Positions 2,414-10,292 of a DNA stretch of 64,000 nucleotides are shown here, piece after piece. The translations under genes were made by a program, and so were the position numbers. The stretch's first letter is position 1; each line of letters starts with the position of its first letter. Below the pieces are notes generated by a model that worked only from the letters and a program-made list of their open reading frames with translations, did not search any database and was not told the origin of the DNA. Source of the DNA: Nitrosotalea devaniterrae (lineage in GTDB: Archaea; Thermoproteota; Nitrososphaeria; Nitrososphaerales; Nitrosopumilaceae); NCBI GenBank assembly GCA_900065925.1, contig LN890280.1, positions 550,451-614,450 on the forward strand, written 5' to 3'.

Positions 2414-3571
2414 TTAAGGCATGTGAATATTCTCAGTATAGGTAAATGGAATATTGTTTGTTATCCAGCTTATCGTAATAGGATATGTAAGCTCAGTTCT
2501 AAATCCTGCACCAATTAATATTCTAGTTTCAGATATAGAATCCCCAGATGCAAGAGGATTTGATTGTGTTACGTTTTTGAAATCAAAATTATAATCATTA
2601 TTGAGAACGAGTGTTGCCTTAAGGCTGGTTATTGGTGAGACCCCGATATTTTTTAGTGTTAATTGGATAGGCGGTCCACCCGGATTGGTCAGAGATGAGA
2701 TCGACTGAATTGATACTATCTCTACAGTTTGATTTGTAGTAACAAATACTGTTCCCTTGAGCCATGTATGAATATCGCTGTAATAGTGGTATATGCCAGA
2801 TTTATCAAAGGTGTAAGTCCATGCATAACCTGGTTCAATCAAGCCAGACCTAAAAGATACAAAACTGCTTGTTATGTCATTTGCAACACTGTCCATGTTA
2901 ATCCATCGTACAGTATTGTTTGTTCCAATGACTACCTTTACGATAGATGGAGTAAATGTAAAACCATTAGATCTGATAGAAGAGTTTACAGGAATTATTA
3001 TGGTTGTTTCGGGGCTTGTCATGGTAGAGACAGATTCCTTCGCCCAACCTCTTTCCATCAAAACATTTGCAGTGGGATATCTTACACAAACGGGCAAGCC
3101 ATCAGCTGTTTTTATCATTAATTCTAGACCCTCTTTACAAGCAACATCTTTGGGGGCAATGCCTGTTGTGAGTTGTTGCAAAGGAGGTGGGAAGTAGGGA
3201 TGTTCATCATTTAGCCCACTTACCGAACTTCTAAAGAATGGAGCTTGGTCGTTTAGATAATAATAACGCCAGGTATCATAGTTTGAATCGTTACTAGTTA
3301 CCCAATCTTCCAAGATGCCGTTTTTCATAGCTTCAATCATTTGTGTTTTCATCATTTCCATCCAGATTGCTCCTTTGTACTGGTAGTATGGATTCCATTG
3401 CTCCCGCTGTACCTCCTTTGACGGTACACATCCGGGACAACCATAACATGGAGCTGAAGGCCAGTCTGAGTTTGAGCTTATAGCACAACCTGCCTTGACA
3501 GGATTACTCATTATTGCAGGAACTAATAACAAGATCATAACTGAAACTATTGCAAAGTGAAGAGTTTTCAT
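2414..3571 (-). CDS. Secreted array protein: 48-residue Cys module plus degenerate cupredoxin
   Basis: The 385-residue protein has an MKTLHFAIV leader and signal peptide (to about 27), then a CYGCPGC cluster at 42-48. The shared 48-residue module occupies 129-176, with Cys145 and Cys162. A plastocyanin-like domain follows at about 188-278, then an Ig-like tail. The usual type 1 copper ligands are mostly missing: Asn231 in the first His place, Ser265 for Cys, His268 kept, Leu271 for Met. A normal type 1 copper site is therefore unlikely. The same module-plus-cupredoxin order appears in the frameshifted pair at 16957-19342. Surface-anchoring or binding functions are possible; none is shown. Confidence 0.75.
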   Translation of the reverse strand: MKTLHFAIVSVMILLLVPAIMSNPVKAGCAISSNSDWPSAPCYGCPGCVPSKEVQREQWNPYYQYKGAIWMEMMKTQMIEAMKNGILEDWVTSNDSNYDTWRYYYLNDQAPFFRSSVSGLNDEHPYFPPPLQQLTTGIAPKDVACKEGLELMIKTADGLPVCVRYPTANVLMERGWAKESVSTMTSPETTIIIPVNSSIRSNGFTFTPSIVKVVIGTNNTVRWINMDSVANDITSSFVSFRSGLIEPGYAWTYTFDKSGIYHYYSDIHTWLKGTVFVTTNQTVEIVSIQSISSLTNPGGPPIQLTLKNIGVSPITSLKATLVLNNDYNFDFKNVTQSNPLASGDSISETRILIGAGFRTELTYPITISWITNNIPFTYTENIHMP

Positions 3572-3580
3572 ATTTCACAT

Positions 3581-3606
3581 GTACTGGACTATTATTGTTT
3601 AAAAAA
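3581..3606 (-). promoter_or_regulatory. Array promoter, TTTTTTAAA-N8-GTCCAGTAC
   Basis: Read on the minus strand, TCTACACCAG precedes TTTTTTAAA (3606-3598), then an 8-nt spacer, then GTCCAGTAC (3589-3581), ten nt before the ATG at 3571. It shares the geometry of the plus-strand array promoters. Confidence 0.65.
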
Positions 3607-3715
3607 CTGGTGTAGAATTCTTCTAGTAATACACCTCTGATGGGTATTGCAGCATTAGTTCAATACCTAAACATCACATCTTTTGATGAATTACCCTGTT
3701 TTAGAGAATCTGACA

Positions 3716-3770
3716 TGACAATATTGTACCGGAACTTATCAGATTAGGCAAATAGTGTTAAACTAATTCC
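3716..3770 (+). repeat. Intergenic repeat A, copy 2
   Basis: This copy carries TGACAATATTGT, then GGAACTTATCAGATTAGGCA and a TGTTAAACTAATT tail. It is the longest match to copy 4 at 15781, which shares GGCAAA and TGTTAAACTA. Confidence 0.7.
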
Positions 3771-3863
3771 AGAAATCTGTGTGGTCTTGTGTGGGTCAGA
3801 CTTGTGAGAATCTGAACCATTCCAATCATTTCAAAATTACAATACCGTAGGTGTTATGTTCTT

Positions 3864-3902
3864 AATGTTTTTTAGTCAACTGCGATACGGTGGTCTAAAC
3901 AC
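3864..3902 (+). repeat. Intergenic repeat B, copy 1
   Basis: AATGTTTTTTAGTCAACTGC followed by GATACGGTGGTCTAAACAC. It lies directly 3' of the minus-strand gene ending at 3919 and is one of four copies in this sub-array. Confidence 0.75.
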
Positions 3903-3904
3903 AT

Positions 3905-3922
3905 CTAGAAGTGAGTTTTCAT
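3905..3922 (-). other. Orphan array leader (MKTHF*) overlapping a stop codon
   Basis: The stop codon of the gene at 3919-4272 is embedded in ATGAAAACTCAC, a copy of the array leader start. Read on, it gives only MKTHF and a stop. No gene follows, so this appears to be the leader of a lost or never-acquired downstream gene. Confidence 0.6.
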
Positions 3923-4272
3923 TTCTTTTTACCATAATACAAAAATGATAAAATTCCTAGACTTGCAAAAATTGGTATCAAACTTAGCAATATGGCAGTT
4001 ACTTGGATAGTCCAATACGGATAATCCCATCTAGTTATGGTGCACATTGGGTTAAATGATGGATCGGAATTTCGATATTTGTATACGCACATTGAAGCTG
4101 TATTATTAGACATGGCGGGACAAAAACAGTTTGTATCAGGTTTACAATTACATATTCCTACATTACGTGGCAACCAATAAAGATAATTGGCATACTGAAC
4201 AGCAATAGGATAGAGTGACAGACTCATAATTATTGCAGGAATTAGAATAATTAGAATAAATAAGATTTTCAC
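3919..4272 (-). CDS. Two-helix membrane protein with Cys-rich external loop
   Basis: The 117-residue protein has a transmembrane helix at about 3-30 and another at about 88-112, ending in a basic YYGKKK tail. The loop between holds several cysteines (CNCKPDTNCFC and two later ones) and glycosylation sites, so it is probably outside and disulfide-bonded or metal-binding. Start is a GTG within GTGAAAATC, aligned with the ATGAAAACT of its neighbours. The promoter is array class 2 (TTTTTTAAA at 4305-4297 without the palindrome). Its stop overlaps an orphan leader. Function unknown. Confidence 0.65.
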   Translation of the reverse strand: MKILFILIILIPAIIMSLSLYPIAVQYANYLYWLPRNVGICNCKPDTNCFCPAMSNNTASMCVYKYRNSDPSFNPMCTITRWDYPYWTIQVTAILLSLIPIFASLGILSFLYYGKKK

Positions 4273-4296
4273 AGATGATATATTCGCTCTTCAAAC

Positions 4297-4305
4297 TTTA
4301 AAAAA
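4297..4305 (-). promoter_or_regulatory. Class 2 array promoter TATA box
   Basis: TCTACACCAG-TTTTTTAAA on the minus strand, 25 nt before the GTG at 4272. It lacks the GTACCGTAC-type element found 8 nt downstream of the class 1 boxes. Confidence 0.6.
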
Positions 4306-4360
4306 CTGGTGTAGATTTTCACTGTAAGATTGTTCCAAAAACAAGCATACTCATGCCTAC

Positions 4361-4410
4361 TCGAACAAATGTTTTTTAGTCAACTGCAATCCAGTGGTCT
4401 AAACACTAAT
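4361..4410 (+). repeat. Intergenic repeat B, copy 2
   Basis: TCGAACAAATGTTTTTTAGT followed by CAACTGCAATCCAGTGGTCT and AAACACTAAT. It is near-identical to copy 3 at 5170-5233. It supplies the stop codon of the orphan leader at 4406-4450. Confidence 0.8.
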
Positions 4411-4450
4411 CATAGTCAGGCTTTACGTATAGAAACGAGTGAGTTTTCAT
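4406..4450 (-). other. Orphan array leader (14 codons) overlapping a stop codon
   Basis: The TGA of the gene at 4447-5100 lies inside ATGAAAACTCAC. The reading frame continues for 14 codons and stops in repeat B. No signal peptide or gene follows. It is the second orphan leader at a 3' end in this sub-array. Confidence 0.6.
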
Positions 4451-5100
4451 TTTCTCTTCCTCGAAAATAATAACACGCCTACTGAAATTCCAGTAGTTAT
4501 TGGTATTCCCACCTCTGCCAAAATGATGGCATCGCTTATGTCTTTAGATTGTTTTTCTTCTTCTACATGTTTTTCTTTTTGTGTAGAATATGCATCTAAT
4601 TCTTGTTGCAGTGGTGATTCGATAACTGGCGCAATAATGCCAGATGTTGCTGGTCCTCCAAGTGTAACTACTTCACATGGATGCGATTCCATTGTAGGAT
4701 AGGTTGCACTTACAACTTTCATTGTTGTCATATCTATTACTACCGTTGCCCACCAATCGTTACTACATGCAATTGGTGCGCTACTTGAAGGTGCTTTCAG
4801 AACCACACTGGCATACTGCCATTTAAAATCTGATGTACCGAGTTTGTTATTACTACCAAATCCCATTCCCACATATTTCCAATCATGTGACCAGTTCTGT
4901 AACTCTGGAATGGATAGTGCCACATTAACTACGGACTGAGTCTCAGATGGTGACAATGTTGGTACGGGGGAATGAAGTATTGAGGAAGGGATAGGCGGTA
5001 TGGAATTTGAAGAATTTGTAGTATTTTGTGCAAAAACATTGGTTGTCACCATTGTAGAAATTACTAGAACGATTATTGTTGAAAGATGTAGAGTTTTCAA
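4447..5100 (-). CDS. Secreted array protein with C-terminal membrane anchor
   Basis: The 217-residue protein starts with a TTG in TTGAAAACTCTACATC, otherwise identical to the array leader, and has a signal peptide to about residue 24. A Ser/Pro/Thr linker leads to a globular domain at about 50-160 with one conserved-looking Cys pair. After a charged helical stretch (KEKHVEEEKQ) comes a C-terminal transmembrane helix ending LLFSRKRK. It is therefore anchored with most of its mass outside. No family was recognised. The promoter is class 2 and lies inside a 140-bp spacer repeat. Confidence 0.7.
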   Translation of the reverse strand: MKTLHLSTIIVLVISTMVTTNVFAQNTTNSSNSIPPIPSSILHSPVPTLSPSETQSVVNVALSIPELQNWSHDWKYVGMGFGSNNKLGTSDFKWQYASVVLKAPSSSAPIACSNDWWATVVIDMTTMKVVSATYPTMESHPCEVVTLGGPATSGIIAPVIESPLQQELDAYSTQKEKHVEEEKQSKDISDAIILAEVGIPITTGISVGVLLFSRKRK

Positions 5101-5233
5101 AATATGCTATCAATCATACTTCAAGATTTAAAAAACTGACGTAGATTTTCATAGTAAGATTCCAAATTCCAGCCTACTCACGCATTCCCGAACAAATGTT
5201 TTTTAGTCAACTGCAATCCAGTGGTCTAAACAC
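5094..5233 (+). repeat. 140-bp promoter-spacer repeat, copy 1 (contains repeat B copy 3)
   Basis: This spacer carries the TTG start region and class 2 promoter (TATA 5127-5135) of the minus-strand gene ending at 5100, plus repeat B. It aligns without gaps to 5929-6068, offset 835, with about 14 differences by my count (about 90% identity). Genes on either side differ, so the promoter spacer itself has been duplicated or converted. Confidence 0.8.
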
Positions 5234-5281
5234 TAATCTTAGTTAGGTTATTCATATGGAAATAATCTAGTTTTTGTTTTC

Positions 5282-5935
5282 TTAACTAGTAGAATTACTA
5301 ACTACAAAATGTCGTATTACAACATGTCCCCATTCATCTCCACCTATGACCGTATATGTTCCACTCGAGAATTGTTGAAACTGGTCACCAACAAAATAAC
5401 CATAGAATGAAAGGTGACGCATCAATTCGTAGGAATGGTTTATCGATCCGTCTTCAAACATAGCCATGTCAGTCAAGGGTTGAAAAGCATAACTCTTGAT
5501 GGAGAAAATTGCTTGACAATGATAAGTTCCATTCTGATAAAGTGAAAGAGGTTTAGATGTAGTCATGTTATTTTGTAAATAATTCCCTTGTAGTATTGCA
5601 ATTCCAAAAGGCATTTCATCATCACAAGGCTTCAATCCCAATCCTTTCAAAGACCAATTATCTGAGTGGTTTGCAATCAATACTTTTGAAGAGGTATTAT
5701 TGAGTCTGACATCAATCTCTATTACCTGTCCTATCTTCAAAGACGTAGTGTTTGCAGAAAGGGAGAGATTAAGAAATGAGGTTGAATCCGTAGAATTTGT
5801 TGAATCATAATATGGAATTTTTCGAAGCGGAATTGAAGTATACACACTAGAAAGATGATGCAAAACAACAAAGTATGTAATTAAACTTCCAGCTCCTATC
5901 AAGAGCACAATTATTACAATATTTTCTATTTTCAA
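5282..5935 (-). CDS. Membrane-anchored Ig-like array protein
   Basis: The 217-residue protein has an N-terminal helix (about 5-27) and an extracellular beta-rich domain. LKIGQVIEIDVRLNNTSS and a closing GTYTVIGGDEWGHVVIRHF segment are typical of Ig-like or BsuPI-like beta sandwiches. It has many N-x-S/T sites and two Cys (about 109 and 140). Start is TTG, embedded in the same spacer as its neighbour at 4447. The 3' end shows only a weak trace of the leader. Likely a surface-exposed binding or structural protein; function unknown. Confidence 0.65.
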   Translation of the reverse strand: MKIENIVIIVLLIGAGSLITYFVVLHHLSSVYTSIPLRKIPYYDSTNSTDSTSFLNLSLSANTTSLKIGQVIEIDVRLNNTSSKVLIANHSDNWSLKGLGLKPCDDEMPFGIAILQGNYLQNNMTTSKPLSLYQNGTYHCQAIFSIKSYAFQPLTDMAMFEDGSINHSYELMRHLSFYGYFVGDQFQQFSSGTYTVIGGDEWGHVVIRHFVVSNSTS

Positions 5936-6068
5936 AATATGCTATCATTCATACTCCAAGATTTAAAAAACTGACGTAGATTCTCTCAGTAAGATTCCAA
6001 ATTCAAGCCTACTCGTGCATTCCCGAACAAATGTTTTTTAGTCAACTGCGATACGGCAGTCTAAATAC
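5929..6068 (+). repeat. 140-bp promoter-spacer repeat, copy 2 (contains repeat B copy 4)
   Basis: Gapless partner of 5094-5233. It carries the class 2 TATA box TTTAAAAAA at 5962-5970 for the minus-strand gene ending at 5935, and the repeat B core from about 6026. Confidence 0.8.
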
Positions 6069-6124
6069 AAACCTATTGGACAAGTCTACACCACATTTAT
6101 TTTCAAATCATTCAAAGGTAGGTT

Positions 6125-6652
6125 ATGAATAAAAATCAAATATTGCTTGTCATATTATTTTCTGTTGGTATTATTTTTGTTGTCTTGGGTCTAATGTTCA
6201 ATTCCATAAGGGTGCTAATGACAAGTTCAGAAATAGAACAATACCATAAAGAACTATCAGAATCAAAATTTTGTCACGGTGTAACTTGTCCTAGTCCTCC
6301 TTTCTACGCAAAATTACCATATGTAGGAATTGGCCAGGCGTTGTATTATGCAGGTACAGTAAGCCTAGTTTCGGGTGCAATAATTTCAATTAGAAATAGA
6401 ATGTCAATTTCAAGACAATTTGTACCGCAGTGGATATTTTTCATTGGTAGTATAATGACATCATCTTTACTTTTTGCAATGCCAGTACGTATACCTCAGT
6501 TACAATCAGAACCATTTTGTATTGACCCGCTATGTCCGATAGGAGGATTTTATTACACAGTAGACCCTGCAATTTTCTTTCCACTATTGTATTTAGGAAT
6601 TATAATTACAATCGCTGGCGGAATTATTTATCTAATAAAACTGAGCAGATAA
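6125..6652 (+). CDS. Four-helix membrane protein with Cys loops
   Basis: The 175-residue protein has four predicted transmembrane helices (about 5-27, 70-88, 98-118, 150-172). Two external loops each carry a Cys pair: KFCHGVTCPSPP and FCIDPLCPIGG. The same plan, four helices with C-x4-5-C loops, is seen in the array gene at 25547-26047, so the two are probably paralogues or convergent disulfide-loop proteins. The leader is MNKNQ, not MKTLH. Repeat A copy 3 lies directly after its stop. Function unknown. Confidence 0.65.
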   Translation: MNKNQILLVILFSVGIIFVVLGLMFNSIRVLMTSSEIEQYHKELSESKFCHGVTCPSPPFYAKLPYVGIGQALYYAGTVSLVSGAIISIRNRMSISRQFVPQWIFFIGSIMTSSLLFAMPVRIPQLQSEPFCIDPLCPIGGFYYTVDPAIFFPLLYLGIIITIAGGIIYLIKLSR

Positions 6653-6656
6653 AATA

Positions 6657-6688
6657 TACGATATTGTCTTGGAACTTACCAGACTCAC
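6657..6688 (+). repeat. Intergenic repeat A, copy 3
   Basis: A shorter, more diverged copy: GATATTGTCTTGGAACTTAC followed by CAGACTCAC. It starts four nt after the stop codon of 6125-6652, which suggests a 3'-end role such as transcript termination or processing. Confidence 0.5.
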
Positions 6689-6730
6689 ATTTTGAAATGC
6701 ATTGTACGCAGTTTGAAATTTAATTTTGTC

Positions 6731-7341: not shown

Positions 7342-8838
7342 ATGAAAACTCTACATCTTTTAATTTTAGCTGGTTTGATTCCAATTTTTATTATTGGTAT
7401 CGATGAAGCACATGCACAATACGGCTGTCCACCGATTTCCGGAGGATGGCATCCGCAGATATCTACAGATCAAAACAATGTGTATGTGTTTTGGAATTAT
7501 TTCTTTGGATGTGGAACTAGAGTTCTTTTATTTGAGAAAAGTAATGACAATGGAGTCACGTTTGGAAATCCAGTTGCCTTGGAAGGTCCATCCAGATCTG
7601 GTAGTTATCCCGCAGTTGCGGCATCAAATGGTAATGTGTATGTGTCCTGGTTCAATTATGTTTCACCAGAGGACCGGTTATTTTTCAAGAGTAGTAATAA
7701 TGGTTCAAGTTTTTCAGATGATATTCAGATCAGGACAAACGATACTATTCAAAACGATGTATCAAGCATACTTGTGTCTGGAAATAACATTGGTATAATC
7801 TGGACAGGCATTCTAAACCATGGATTACGCTCCATCTTTCTTAGTACAAGTACAGATGAGGGGAATACATTTGGTGACCAGGTAGATCTTAGCGCAACTA
7901 CTGGTGATTCATTCTTGCCTCAAACGATTCAAGCAGGATCAAAAGTCTATGTTCTTTGGTCGTCTTTTGGAAATTGTAATAGTGCAAGACAAGCCTGTGT
8001 ATCACAAGCATATTTTACTACTATTGATATCAAAAATGGATTTACAACTGGACCAATCATCAGTCTTGGTCCACTGGTATTGCCAAGACTTGCAGTTTTC
8101 GGAAACAATGTTTCTGTTACTGGAATAACAAGTACTAACACAGATCCCAGCATTGGAAATAGTGGAGTGTCTTTTGTGAAAAGCACGGACGGAGGCACTT
8201 CATTTGAAAAACCCATACAACTAGTAACTTATGACGCTGCCTCAAACTTTCTCAATGATTTGGCATTGGATTCTTCAGGAGATTATGTCTATGTCACGTG
8301 GTATGACCACGATCCTCACAGCGGTGAAAAACTTTTGATGACAACAAGTTCTGATGATGGAGATACTTTTGGAAGAATACAGACACTTGATGGTCCAGAC
8401 CAACATTACAATGGTAACGAGGGTAACTCACTTGATCAACAAATATCTGTATCAGGCAACAAGTATTACATCATATGGCAGAGTCATACCTCACTTAATC
8501 CAAATGGAATGGGAATATTTTTTAGAAAAAGTATAGATGGTGGACAAACACTGGGTGATGCAACAGATCTGACAAACAAGATTGTCATATCAAATCCAGG
8601 ATATGCAATGGCATCAAATGGCAACCACATCTACGTTGTGGGACCAGAGTATGCCTTCAAAGACGGTAATCATATGGTGTTTTCACAAAGCTCTGATGGT
8701 GGAATTTCATTTTCCAATTCAACAGATTTTGATCAAAACAGCATGTCAACCGTACCAGAATTCCCTTTTGCGATTCCTGTTTTACTTGTCAGCGTAACAT
8801 CATTAGTTATATTTTACAGGATAAAAATTAGGAAATGA
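7342..8838 (+). CDS. BNR-repeat beta-propeller surface protein with PEFPFA membrane tail
   Basis: The 498-residue protein opens MKTLHLLIL with a signal peptide to about 25. The body has seven Asp-box (BNR) motifs of the S-x-D-x-G-x-T-F type, for example KSNDNGVTFG and KSTDGGTSFE, marking a sialidase-like propeller. The catalytic Arg triad and Tyr of true sialidases could not be assigned, so hydrolase activity is not claimed. The C-terminus is VPEFPFAIPVLL, a helix, then RIKIRK: a sorting or anchor tail shared by four array proteins. Its stop overlaps the next start as ATGA. Its neighbour at 8835 is a tandem duplicate. Confidence 0.8.
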   Translation: MKTLHLLILAGLIPIFIIGIDEAHAQYGCPPISGGWHPQISTDQNNVYVFWNYFFGCGTRVLLFEKSNDNGVTFGNPVALEGPSRSGSYPAVAASNGNVYVSWFNYVSPEDRLFFKSSNNGSSFSDDIQIRTNDTIQNDVSSILVSGNNIGIIWTGILNHGLRSIFLSTSTDEGNTFGDQVDLSATTGDSFLPQTIQAGSKVYVLWSSFGNCNSARQACVSQAYFTTIDIKNGFTTGPIISLGPLVLPRLAVFGNNVSVTGITSTNTDPSIGNSGVSFVKSTDGGTSFEKPIQLVTYDAASNFLNDLALDSSGDYVYVTWYDHDPHSGEKLLMTTSSDDGDTFGRIQTLDGPDQHYNGNEGNSLDQQISVSGNKYYIIWQSHTSLNPNGMGIFFRKSIDGGQTLGDATDLTNKIVISNPGYAMASNGNHIYVVGPEYAFKDGNHMVFSQSSDGGISFSNSTDFDQNSMSTVPEFPFAIPVLLVSVTSLVIFYRIKIRK

Positions 8839-10292
8839 AAACTCTACATCTTTCAATAATGCTGGCAGGAATTGCAATGTTCGGAATGTTCTCTTTTTTA
8901 CCGTCCTTTGCAGATAATGTTAATTCTGAGTGGCCTACTGGACCAGGCCAATTTCAACTATCGCAAATTGTAGCATCTGGAAACAACGCCTATGTCATAT
9001 ACCAAACTTATAACGGCTCTGAGGCATTCTTTAGAAAAAGCATCGATGGAGGTGCAACTTTTGATAAAATCATAAAAATAAATGATGATGACAATGGCGA
9101 AGTTATTAGTCCTCAAATCACCACTTCAGGAAATAATGTCTACATAAGCTGGGATGTAATGTATCTCAATCACACTGTGCATACAATGTTCAAAAAAAGC
9201 ACTGATAATGGTAACACATTTGGAAATGCCATTGTATTAAACCCCTATGGTGCCAAAACTGGCTATGCCGTCATCAATCAAATGACATCTTTAGGATCAA
9301 ATGTATACGCAGCCATGAGCTATGATGATTTGACTTCATCTGGAGGTAGTCAGATCCTTAAAACAAGTGCTGATAACGGAGACACGTTTGGAAAGCCTGT
9401 TTCTATTTTTAATGATGGTGATTACTTCAGTACGAAGATCGCCGTTTCTGAAAAAAACGTATACGTAGTATCAGAGAAATCTTATGCATGCCAACAGGGT
9501 GGATGTAACCAAGTTAACATTTTTTTTAGAAAGAGTACTGACAATGGAACAACTTTTGGCAAGATGATAAATCTTAGCAATGGAACGCTTGTACTTGCCG
9601 AGCAAATGATAGCATCAAAAAATAATGTTTTTGTAGTGTGGCAGGATGGTCCGTATCCAGCGATATTCTTTACAAAAAGTTCTGACGGTGGTTCCACTTT
9701 TAGTAATAAAATAAATCTTAGTAAAAACATCACCAACAACTCAGAACCACAGATTGCAGTAGAAGGAAATAATATCTATGTTGTTTTTCATGATCGTGGA
9801 TCTTCGCCAAGTCATATGGGTGTGTATTTTACAAAAAGTTCTGATGGAGGTTCAACTTTTAGTAATCCTGTAAAAATTGCTGACCGGGGGACCTCATCCC
9901 TTCATATTGCTACGTCGGAAAAAAATGTCTATATGATATGGGATGATTTCAATTCTACATCGAACCGATCGAATGTATTTTTTACTAAAAGTTCTGATAA
10001 CGGGACTAATTTTGATAATCCAGTAAATCTGTCCAGTGAGATTAAAGGGGAAACATTTGGACAATTAGCTGTGGAAGAGAAAAACGTATACGTTGGACTG
10101 GGAACAGGATTCCCAGCAGATTACGTCTATTTTAGGGCAAGTAACGATGGTGGAAGAACTTTTGGCAATGTAACTGATCTGAATCATGATTCCTCTCAAA
10201 CAAAAATTCCAGAATTTCCTTTTGCAGTTCCTATGTTGTTGGCAAGTTTTGTGCCTGTAATTGTATTTTACAGGACTAGGTTTAGAAAATGA
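8835..10292 (+). CDS. BNR-repeat beta-propeller surface protein, tandem paralogue
   Basis: The 485-residue protein has an MKTLHLSIM leader, a signal peptide ending near FADN (about 27), and eight BNR Asp-boxes such as KSIDGGATFD and KSSDGGSTFS. It ends with IPEFPFAVPMLL, a helix and RTRFRK. It resembles the preceding gene along its length, so the two arose by duplication. The start overlaps the upstream stop as ATGA, and its own stop overlaps the next start in the same way, implying translational coupling. A surface adhesin or glycan-binding role is plausible; no catalytic set was identified. Confidence 0.8.
   Translation: MKTLHLSIMLAGIAMFGMFSFLPSFADNVNSEWPTGPGQFQLSQIVASGNNAYVIYQTYNGSEAFFRKSIDGGATFDKIIKINDDDNGEVISPQITTSGNNVYISWDVMYLNHTVHTMFKKSTDNGNTFGNAIVLNPYGAKTGYAVINQMTSLGSNVYAAMSYDDLTSSGGSQILKTSADNGDTFGKPVSIFNDGDYFSTKIAVSEKNVYVVSEKSYACQQGGCNQVNIFFRKSTDNGTTFGKMINLSNGTLVLAEQMIASKNNVFVVWQDGPYPAIFFTKSSDGGSTFSNKINLSKNITNNSEPQIAVEGNNIYVVFHDRGSSPSHMGVYFTKSSDGGSTFSNPVKIADRGTSSLHIATSEKNVYMIWDDFNSTSNRSNVFFTKSSDNGTNFDNPVNLSSEIKGETFGQLAVEEKNVYVGLGTGFPADYVYFRASNDGGRTFGNVTDLNHDSSQTKIPEFPFAVPMLLASFVPVIVFYRTRFRK

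Follow-up and report, generated by a model that had tools for sequence, protein, structure and literature searches.

Near-identical spacers as the joined ends of small gene cassettes in Nitrosotalea devaniterrae, with probable integron-like insertion

Results

The near-identical spacers that separate unrelated genes in Nitrosotalea devaniterrae consist of the ends of small gene cassettes, joined to one another. The stretch that we analysed (the window) has 64,000 nucleotides, bases 550,451–614,450 of the source contig, and we consider it probable, at roughly two chances in three, that its segment 3864–6652 is a row of cassettes placed by precise, integron-like insertion through a recombinase acting in trans, with homologous exchange acting in addition. 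Movement of the cassettes is what we infer from comparison of genomes, in which one chromosomal site occurs both empty and filled, the far-side junctions of the inserts can be read, the same cassettes lie at unrelated loci, and arrays keep one orientation.

The spacers and the cassette array

The two main spacers of the window, 5094–5233 and 5929–6068, align without gaps at an offset of 835 and are identical at 126 of 140 nucleotides. A preliminary description of this DNA had counted about 14 differences, and there are exactly 14; it had also called the adjoining coding regions different, and at this offset they are unrelated (identity about 0.27–0.33), with values of 0.30 in 4455–5093, 0.30 in 5234–5300 and 0.27 in 5300–5900, and of 0.44 in the 34 nt directly left of the spacer. 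A start region, a promoter and a repeat, B, occur in both spacers, as had been described. Related spacers had further been placed at 4361 and 3864; the first is real, and at the second B alone is common. Segment 4289–4411 matches spacer query positions 26–145 at 86% with gaps, from the promoter through B with the start not included, and around its B (4368–4407) 40 of 40 nt are identical; at 3864–3903, B is shared at 0.90 identity and the neighbouring DNA has 0.36–0.38.

The promoters are TATA-type. Their motif has eight matches with at most three mismatches, against 0.05 expected, and in three cassettes of the window the match ends 24–26 nt upstream of the start codon. An 11-bp core, AATGTTTTTTA, occurs four times in the window against 0.30 expected, every time at the left edge of a B. 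Each spacer is composite. One cassette supplies its start, its promoter and its terminus (CGAACAAATGTTTTTT), after which comes the B of the next gene, located at that gene's 3' end.

All cores and all four copies of B in the array lie on the plus strand, and the genes of the first three cassettes and their promoters on the minus strand. The left boundary of the array is a core (3864–3874) preceded by a chromosomal-type TTCTT; its flank matches locus L079 of genome G047, where a different cassette comes next. Cassette 1 (3874–4377), bounded by the cores at 3864 and 4368, has B at its left end (core 3871–3899), a gene of 117 aa (3919–4272), a promoter at 4297–4315 and a terminus ending in AACAAATGTTTTTT. 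The core at 4368–4378 joins it to cassette 2 (4378–5204), which consists of B (core 4375–4403), a 217-aa gene with a TTG start (4447–5100), a promoter at 5127–5145 and the terminus CCCGAACAAATGTTTTTT. A further core, at 5195–5205 inside the spacer 5094–5233, leads to cassette 3 (5205–6039; 835 bp), with B (core 5202–5230), another 217-aa gene (5282–5935), a promoter at 5962–5980 and again the terminus CCCGAACAAATGTTTTTT. Left of the B at 5202, 389 nt match a locus of G003 (L093) with 90.7% identity, and the DNA right of that B is unrelated.

The core at the right end of cassette 3 (6030–6040) lies inside the spacer 5929–6068 and is followed by the fourth B (6037–6065), which has two mismatches to the core pattern. 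This B begins a probable fourth cassette (6040–6652, plus strand), whose right end was not recognised within the window and whose gene, of 175 aa (6125–6652), is on the strand of B. Five of 37 genomes have this gene, in seven copies that mostly adjoin B and share its strand. Behind the gene in G005, a second, decayed B suggests a cassette whose gene is reversed. The 175-aa protein is of membrane type.

A second repeat, approximately GACAATATTGTNCYGGAACTTRTMAGATT, was seen at 2375, 3717, 6657 and 15782 of the window (four copies, with 0.00 expected) and at loci L074, L075, L076, L079, L082 and L007. Its copies are found close to the boundaries of arrays and also behind the 175-aa gene.

Repeat B in the genus

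The core of B, TTTAGTCAACT-N8-GTGGTCTAAA, has 70 matches with at most three mismatches in 22 of 37 genomes of the genus, most of the relatives' assemblies being draft or metagenome; the same pattern read backwards has six matches in these 37 genomes. The counts below are of 68 copies, two three-mismatch matches (G006:1319943 and G023:C4) having been left out, and they include near-identical contigs of G007 and G047 (L075/L082). B is an imperfect 29-bp palindrome with two near-constant mismatches, T/T in 66 of 68 and A/G in 60 of 68 copies, and these two nearly always mismatched positions give it a direction. Neighbouring copies, mostly 0.5–1.7 kb apart, have the same direction in all 24 pairs that lie within 3 kb. 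In 57 of 68 copies an antisense ORF of at least 60 aa has its stop codon between −12 and +120 nt of the right edge of B, compared with 17% of 3,400 random positions; in nine copies the ORF ends inside B. Left of B, a cassette terminus was found in 35 of 68 copies (consensus TTCcCGAACAAATGTTTTTT, from 26 rows in register) and other DNA in 33 (consensus tccTAATGTTTTTT, from 29 rows in register), a few of which look like older termini.

Matches to the spacer were obtained in 19 of 41 genomes, all 19 belonging to this genus, as do 25 of the 41. A scan of 84,980 species genomes for the exact B core returned 18 stretches, and their records bear the names Nitrosotalea, Thaumarchaeota archaeon or Nitrosopumilaceae archaeon. 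No B outside this genus was found in the collections scanned; the exact core was absent from viral_contigs, and 5190–6075 of the window had no match among phages and plasmids.

The empty and filled thiL-rpS11 site

Matches were obtained in 34 genomes, and the DNA between thiL and rpS11 (these genes, and rpS8e, were named by NCBIfam) was read at 31 loci, those of G010, G043 and G049 being left out. The site is empty in 17 of the 31 genomes and filled in 14. When empty it reads CCTAATGTTTTTTAAACCC and passes directly into the S11 gene, and its T6A3 is probably the TATA box, judging from its position. Among the 14 filled sites, B is clear in nine, has one inserted base in one, and is decayed or a trace in four. 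On the far side, new upstream DNA runs into AATGTTTTTTAAACCC in 12 of 12 filled genomes with a far end (all but G007 and G022; that of G003 is on another contig), with the endings ACAAATG in eight, CACAATG in three and CATAATG in one. As the far-side junctions keep AATGTTTTTTAAACCC, the inserts sit in AATGTTTTTTA and the box is rebuilt. The left core is intact in eight of the 14 filled sites and shortened or altered in six, which, like the decay of B in four, counts against our explanation.

Filled and empty sites are scattered over a ThiL tree of 30 genomes (G047, with a partial gene, was left out), with nine changes of state, at least eight of them forced by well-supported branches; they cluster no more than shuffled labels do (mean 10.0). 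The DNA right of B is shared, within about 870 nt, in two of the 36 pairs that nine B copies at this site form, one pair sharing a whole cassette (G004 and G014) and the other a 36-nt piece. An inositol-phosphate synthase locus was considered as a second empty site and set aside, as rearrangements affect it in G003, G006 and G007; that no clean empty site was seen there is another point against our explanation.

Phage_integrase genes lie about 3.2–3.3 kb upstream of thiL on G042:C6 and G023:C38, in two genomes whose site is empty. They possibly belong to an unrelated integrated element.

Candidate enzymes and target duplication

Phage_integrase genes are present in 27 of the 37 genomes, in 19 of 22 with B and eight of 15 lacking it (p 0.056). 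Among genomes at least 90% complete, the numbers are 12 of 14 and four of five (p 1.0), and since the association vanishes there, this family does not separate B-bearing from B-lacking genomes. N. devaniterrae has four such genes, none of them within 300 kb of the array, and no integrase linked to the array was found with the Phage_integrase profile. Serine resolvase and Y1 transposase (PF01797) each occur in three of 37 genomes and are absent from this one. The search, which covered Phage_integrase, Y1 and serine resolvase, returned no enzyme that follows B, a point against our explanation. As a first guess, the candidate enzyme is a tyrosine recombinase. The arrays may outlive their enzyme, as CALINs do, or may rely on an enzyme from another family.

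The units could instead be non-autonomous transposons with a strict target preference, mobilised by a transposase in trans, so that AATGTTTTTT, which stands at both ends of the inserts, would be a target-site duplication; an asymmetric target would also yield arrays of one orientation. We think this unlikely. The ends of cassette 3, the one unit compared in this way, share no exact word of at least 8 nt as inverted repeats within 60 nt, which argues against DDE transposons and casposons, and the scarcity of Y1 transposases among the 37 genomes, with none in this one, speaks against elements of the IS200/IS605 (HUH Y1) kind. A common core together with ends that lack terminal inverted repeats in the unit tested fits an att-type crossover.

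Cassettes common to different loci

The 217-aa gene at 5282–5935 occurs in four places, two in this genome and one each in G004 and G050, with 95–96% protein identity. Cassette 3 is 95% identical over the whole unit to the thiL-rpS11 cassette of G004, the DNA match running from B to AATGTTTTTTA; beyond it, G004 continues with AACCCG (S11) and the window with GTCAACTG (the next B). To the second copy in this genome (L005), cassette 3 is 97% identical over 788 nt. That copy is flanked by a 104-bp duplication (95%) of the rpS8e upstream region, at 8067–8170 and 8994–9097 of L005; such duplicated flanks are not given by simple insertion and count against our explanation.

Shared cassettes gave 28 pairs, and we counted 25, since three others pair one and the same locus of G007 and G047. 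All 25 have homology that begins at B (the filter admitted starts within 60 nt of B), and left-flank identity is below 0.5 in 21. In the converse arrangement, left flanks that are 89.7–95.4% identical over 242–399 nt lead, right of B, into unrelated DNA; this was seen in five comparisons, namely G007/G003 (two sites), G007/G047, G015/G022 and G003/window. On the promoter side, homology runs to the next core or B in five of 25 pairs. These include cassette 3 and its G004 counterpart, L086/L088 with 94% over 1,015 columns, and L074/L081 with 98% over 621; the left flanks of this last pair are similar (0.72) because both are cassette termini. That homology reaches so far in only five pairs counts against our explanation. 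In ten pairs the homology breaks off within the promoter or start region, in four within the gene, and six pairs concern the 175-aa gene. The frequency of promoter- and start-side breakpoints indicates that ordinary recombination between conserved starts acts too.

In the centre of B, positions 17 and 19 have two common linked states, A..G in 29 and C..A in 24 of 68 copies, and these do not travel with the cassette, as they differ in 17 of 25 homologous-cassette pairs. B is therefore reshuffled internally, a further point against the explanation that we prefer.

These observations bear on the proposal, made in the preliminary description, that spacers are recombination sites at which gene bodies are swapped. 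The condition set for refuting it, breakpoints located elsewhere in relatives, did not hold, as many fall in these spacers, and bodies are commonly exchanged at breakpoints in promoters or start regions (ten of 25 pairs, compared with the five that reach the core); the sharpest breakpoint, on the other hand, is AATGTTTTTTA, at the outer edge of B. Taken further, homologous recombination or gene conversion between spacers could be the only process, with B merely part of a similar stretch, and the breakpoints in promoters, starts and genes and the reshuffled B centres would agree with it. We regard exchange by homology alone as improbable, because the left breakpoints lie at B between otherwise unrelated flanks, and because whole units (B, gene, promoter and terminus) sit in a chromosomal site that, when empty at thiL-rpS11, has no more than about 11 bp in common with the ends of cassettes, so that general homologous recombination does not explain their insertion. 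Body swapping is thus partly supported and stands beside site-specific insertion.

Folding of B and the cargo proteins

B is able to fold as a short hairpin. Under RNA parameters the plus strand is the more stable in 43 of the 68 copies; with DNA parameters the strands are about equal (36 and 31 of 68). In this count few pairs are changed on both sides, so the conservation of B looks like that of a sequence and not of pairing. From 3500 to 6700, no Rfam family reached its gathering score and two matches were at chance level.

The 57 ORFs beside B form 22 clusters by single linkage. A strongly hydrophobic stretch lies in the first 40 residues of 48 of them, and 33 start with TTG under a first-start rule. 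None of the four cassette ORFs of the window has a Pfam match at E 0.01, and three of them compared with NCBIfam had no match; among four cassette proteins of relatives, two have weak sub-threshold hits (MG2 and the A2M bait region) and two have none. By prediction, the cargo proteins mostly look secreted or membrane-anchored. Elsewhere in the window, 7342–10292 encodes two adjacent secreted-type proteins with repeats, both with a PEFPFA-like C-terminus; the first has a BNR_2 match below the cut-off.

That B is only an RNA or regulatory element (a 3' end signal or an operator), the spacers being alike through tandem duplication and later divergence, accords with the position of B at gene 3' ends and its possible hairpin, and is nevertheless very improbable, as the conservation is sequence-like, DNA-parameter folding is about equal on both strands, no Rfam family was matched, the bodies are unrelated (22 clusters among 57 proteins; identity 0.27–0.30), and duplication does not make empty and filled sites.

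Discussion

We propose that a unit has a fixed order: first B, which marks the 3' end of the gene, then a single gene running antisense to it, the archaeal promoter of that gene, and a terminus ending in CGAACAAATGTTTTTT. A recombinase supplied in trans would join the 11-bp core AATGTTTTTTA, formed where both ends of a cassette meet, to the same core in another B or in the chromosome, for instance at the TATA-like box of the gene for ribosomal protein S11; this box would be rebuilt intact after insertion. Insertion at a chromosomal core would found an array and insertion at the core of another B would lengthen it, so that re-use of the core would produce head-to-tail arrays of single orientation; gene bodies could afterwards also be swapped by homologous exchange where starts and promoters are conserved. 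A circular intermediate, recognition of B by the enzyme and activity at the present day are all presumed in this scheme. The putative cassette circle would carry CGAACAAATGTTTTTTAGTCAACTG, and CGAACAAATGTTTTTTAGTCAACTG is the sequence found between cassettes.

The layout is close to that of integrons, whose arrays (attC, attI, IntI), as characterised in the portions of the archaeal report drawn on here (PMC9668308), also have units of a single gene, whose 3' end carries a palindromic site that is joined at its outer edge. These arrays too run head to tail in one orientation from a chromosomal founding site and, in CALINs, lack IntI, comparable to our arrays without a linked integrase. One gene with a 3' site in same-orientation tandem arrays (57 of 68; 24 of 24) and insertion at a defined place in the chromosome that also occurs empty (17 empty, 14 filled; 12 of 12 far junctions) were both found. 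The differences are that B has no R-box at the junction, that the site is shorter, that the cassettes have their own promoters, and that no linked integrase was found.

The R-box of attC has the consensus GTTRRRY. In B plus 12/8 nt, this motif is present in none of 68 copies on the plus strand and two of 68 on the minus strand, and so absent in 66 of 68. Given the missing R-box and the failure to find a linked integrase, we did not assign the array to the integrons despite its integron-like layout.

Xer/dif, as far as the relevant part of PMC2958812 describes it, resembles B in its inverted arms of about 11 bp, short asymmetric centre and TTTAG at both arm ends. B can be read as about 11-7-11, and dif is two inverted 11-bp arms around a 6-bp centre. 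Unlike dif, B has many copies per genome. We rejected this assignment since the junction at the empty chromosomal site is AATGTTTTTTA, left of the palindrome and not in its centre. Thaumarchaea are named as lacking xerA in the same part of that paper (PMC2958812).

Precise insertion with short direct repeats is also reported for thaumarchaeal integrated elements, casposons and IS-like transposons in the sections used of a 2019 survey (PMC6563490), which describe tandem insertion at one site as well. Elements of those kinds bring an integrase, Cas1 or transposase of their own, whereas the units studied here usually have one gene. In the same sections, mobile integrons had not been detected in archaea until then (PMC6563490). 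Archaeal integrons were reported in 2022, from metagenome-assembled genomes only according to the portions drawn on; that report covers Thermoproteota, and its main text, to the extent covered, has no Thaumarchae- or Nitroso- (PMC9668308). In the open-access literature sampled, including parts of PMC5767755 and PMC8371274, we found no description of such a cassette system.

It is conceivable, and we put it forward tentatively as somewhat less than an even bet, that Nitrosotalea has its own cassette-capture system independent of integrons, with a new oriented palindromic site, a AATGTTTTTTA crossover core that spares the TATA-like box, self-promoted and mostly surface or secreted cargo, and a so far undescribed recombinase in trans. 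Integrons are the known case of modular, site-specific capture of single genes; here, the closed genome of a cultured ammonia oxidiser has cassette arrays with a different site, and relatives have the empty counterparts. If our reading is true, B would be a marker for finding more such arrays, which enzyme joins AATGTTTTTTA would be a tractable question, and the capture of cassettes would explain the turnover of surface-protein genes in acid-soil nitrifiers.
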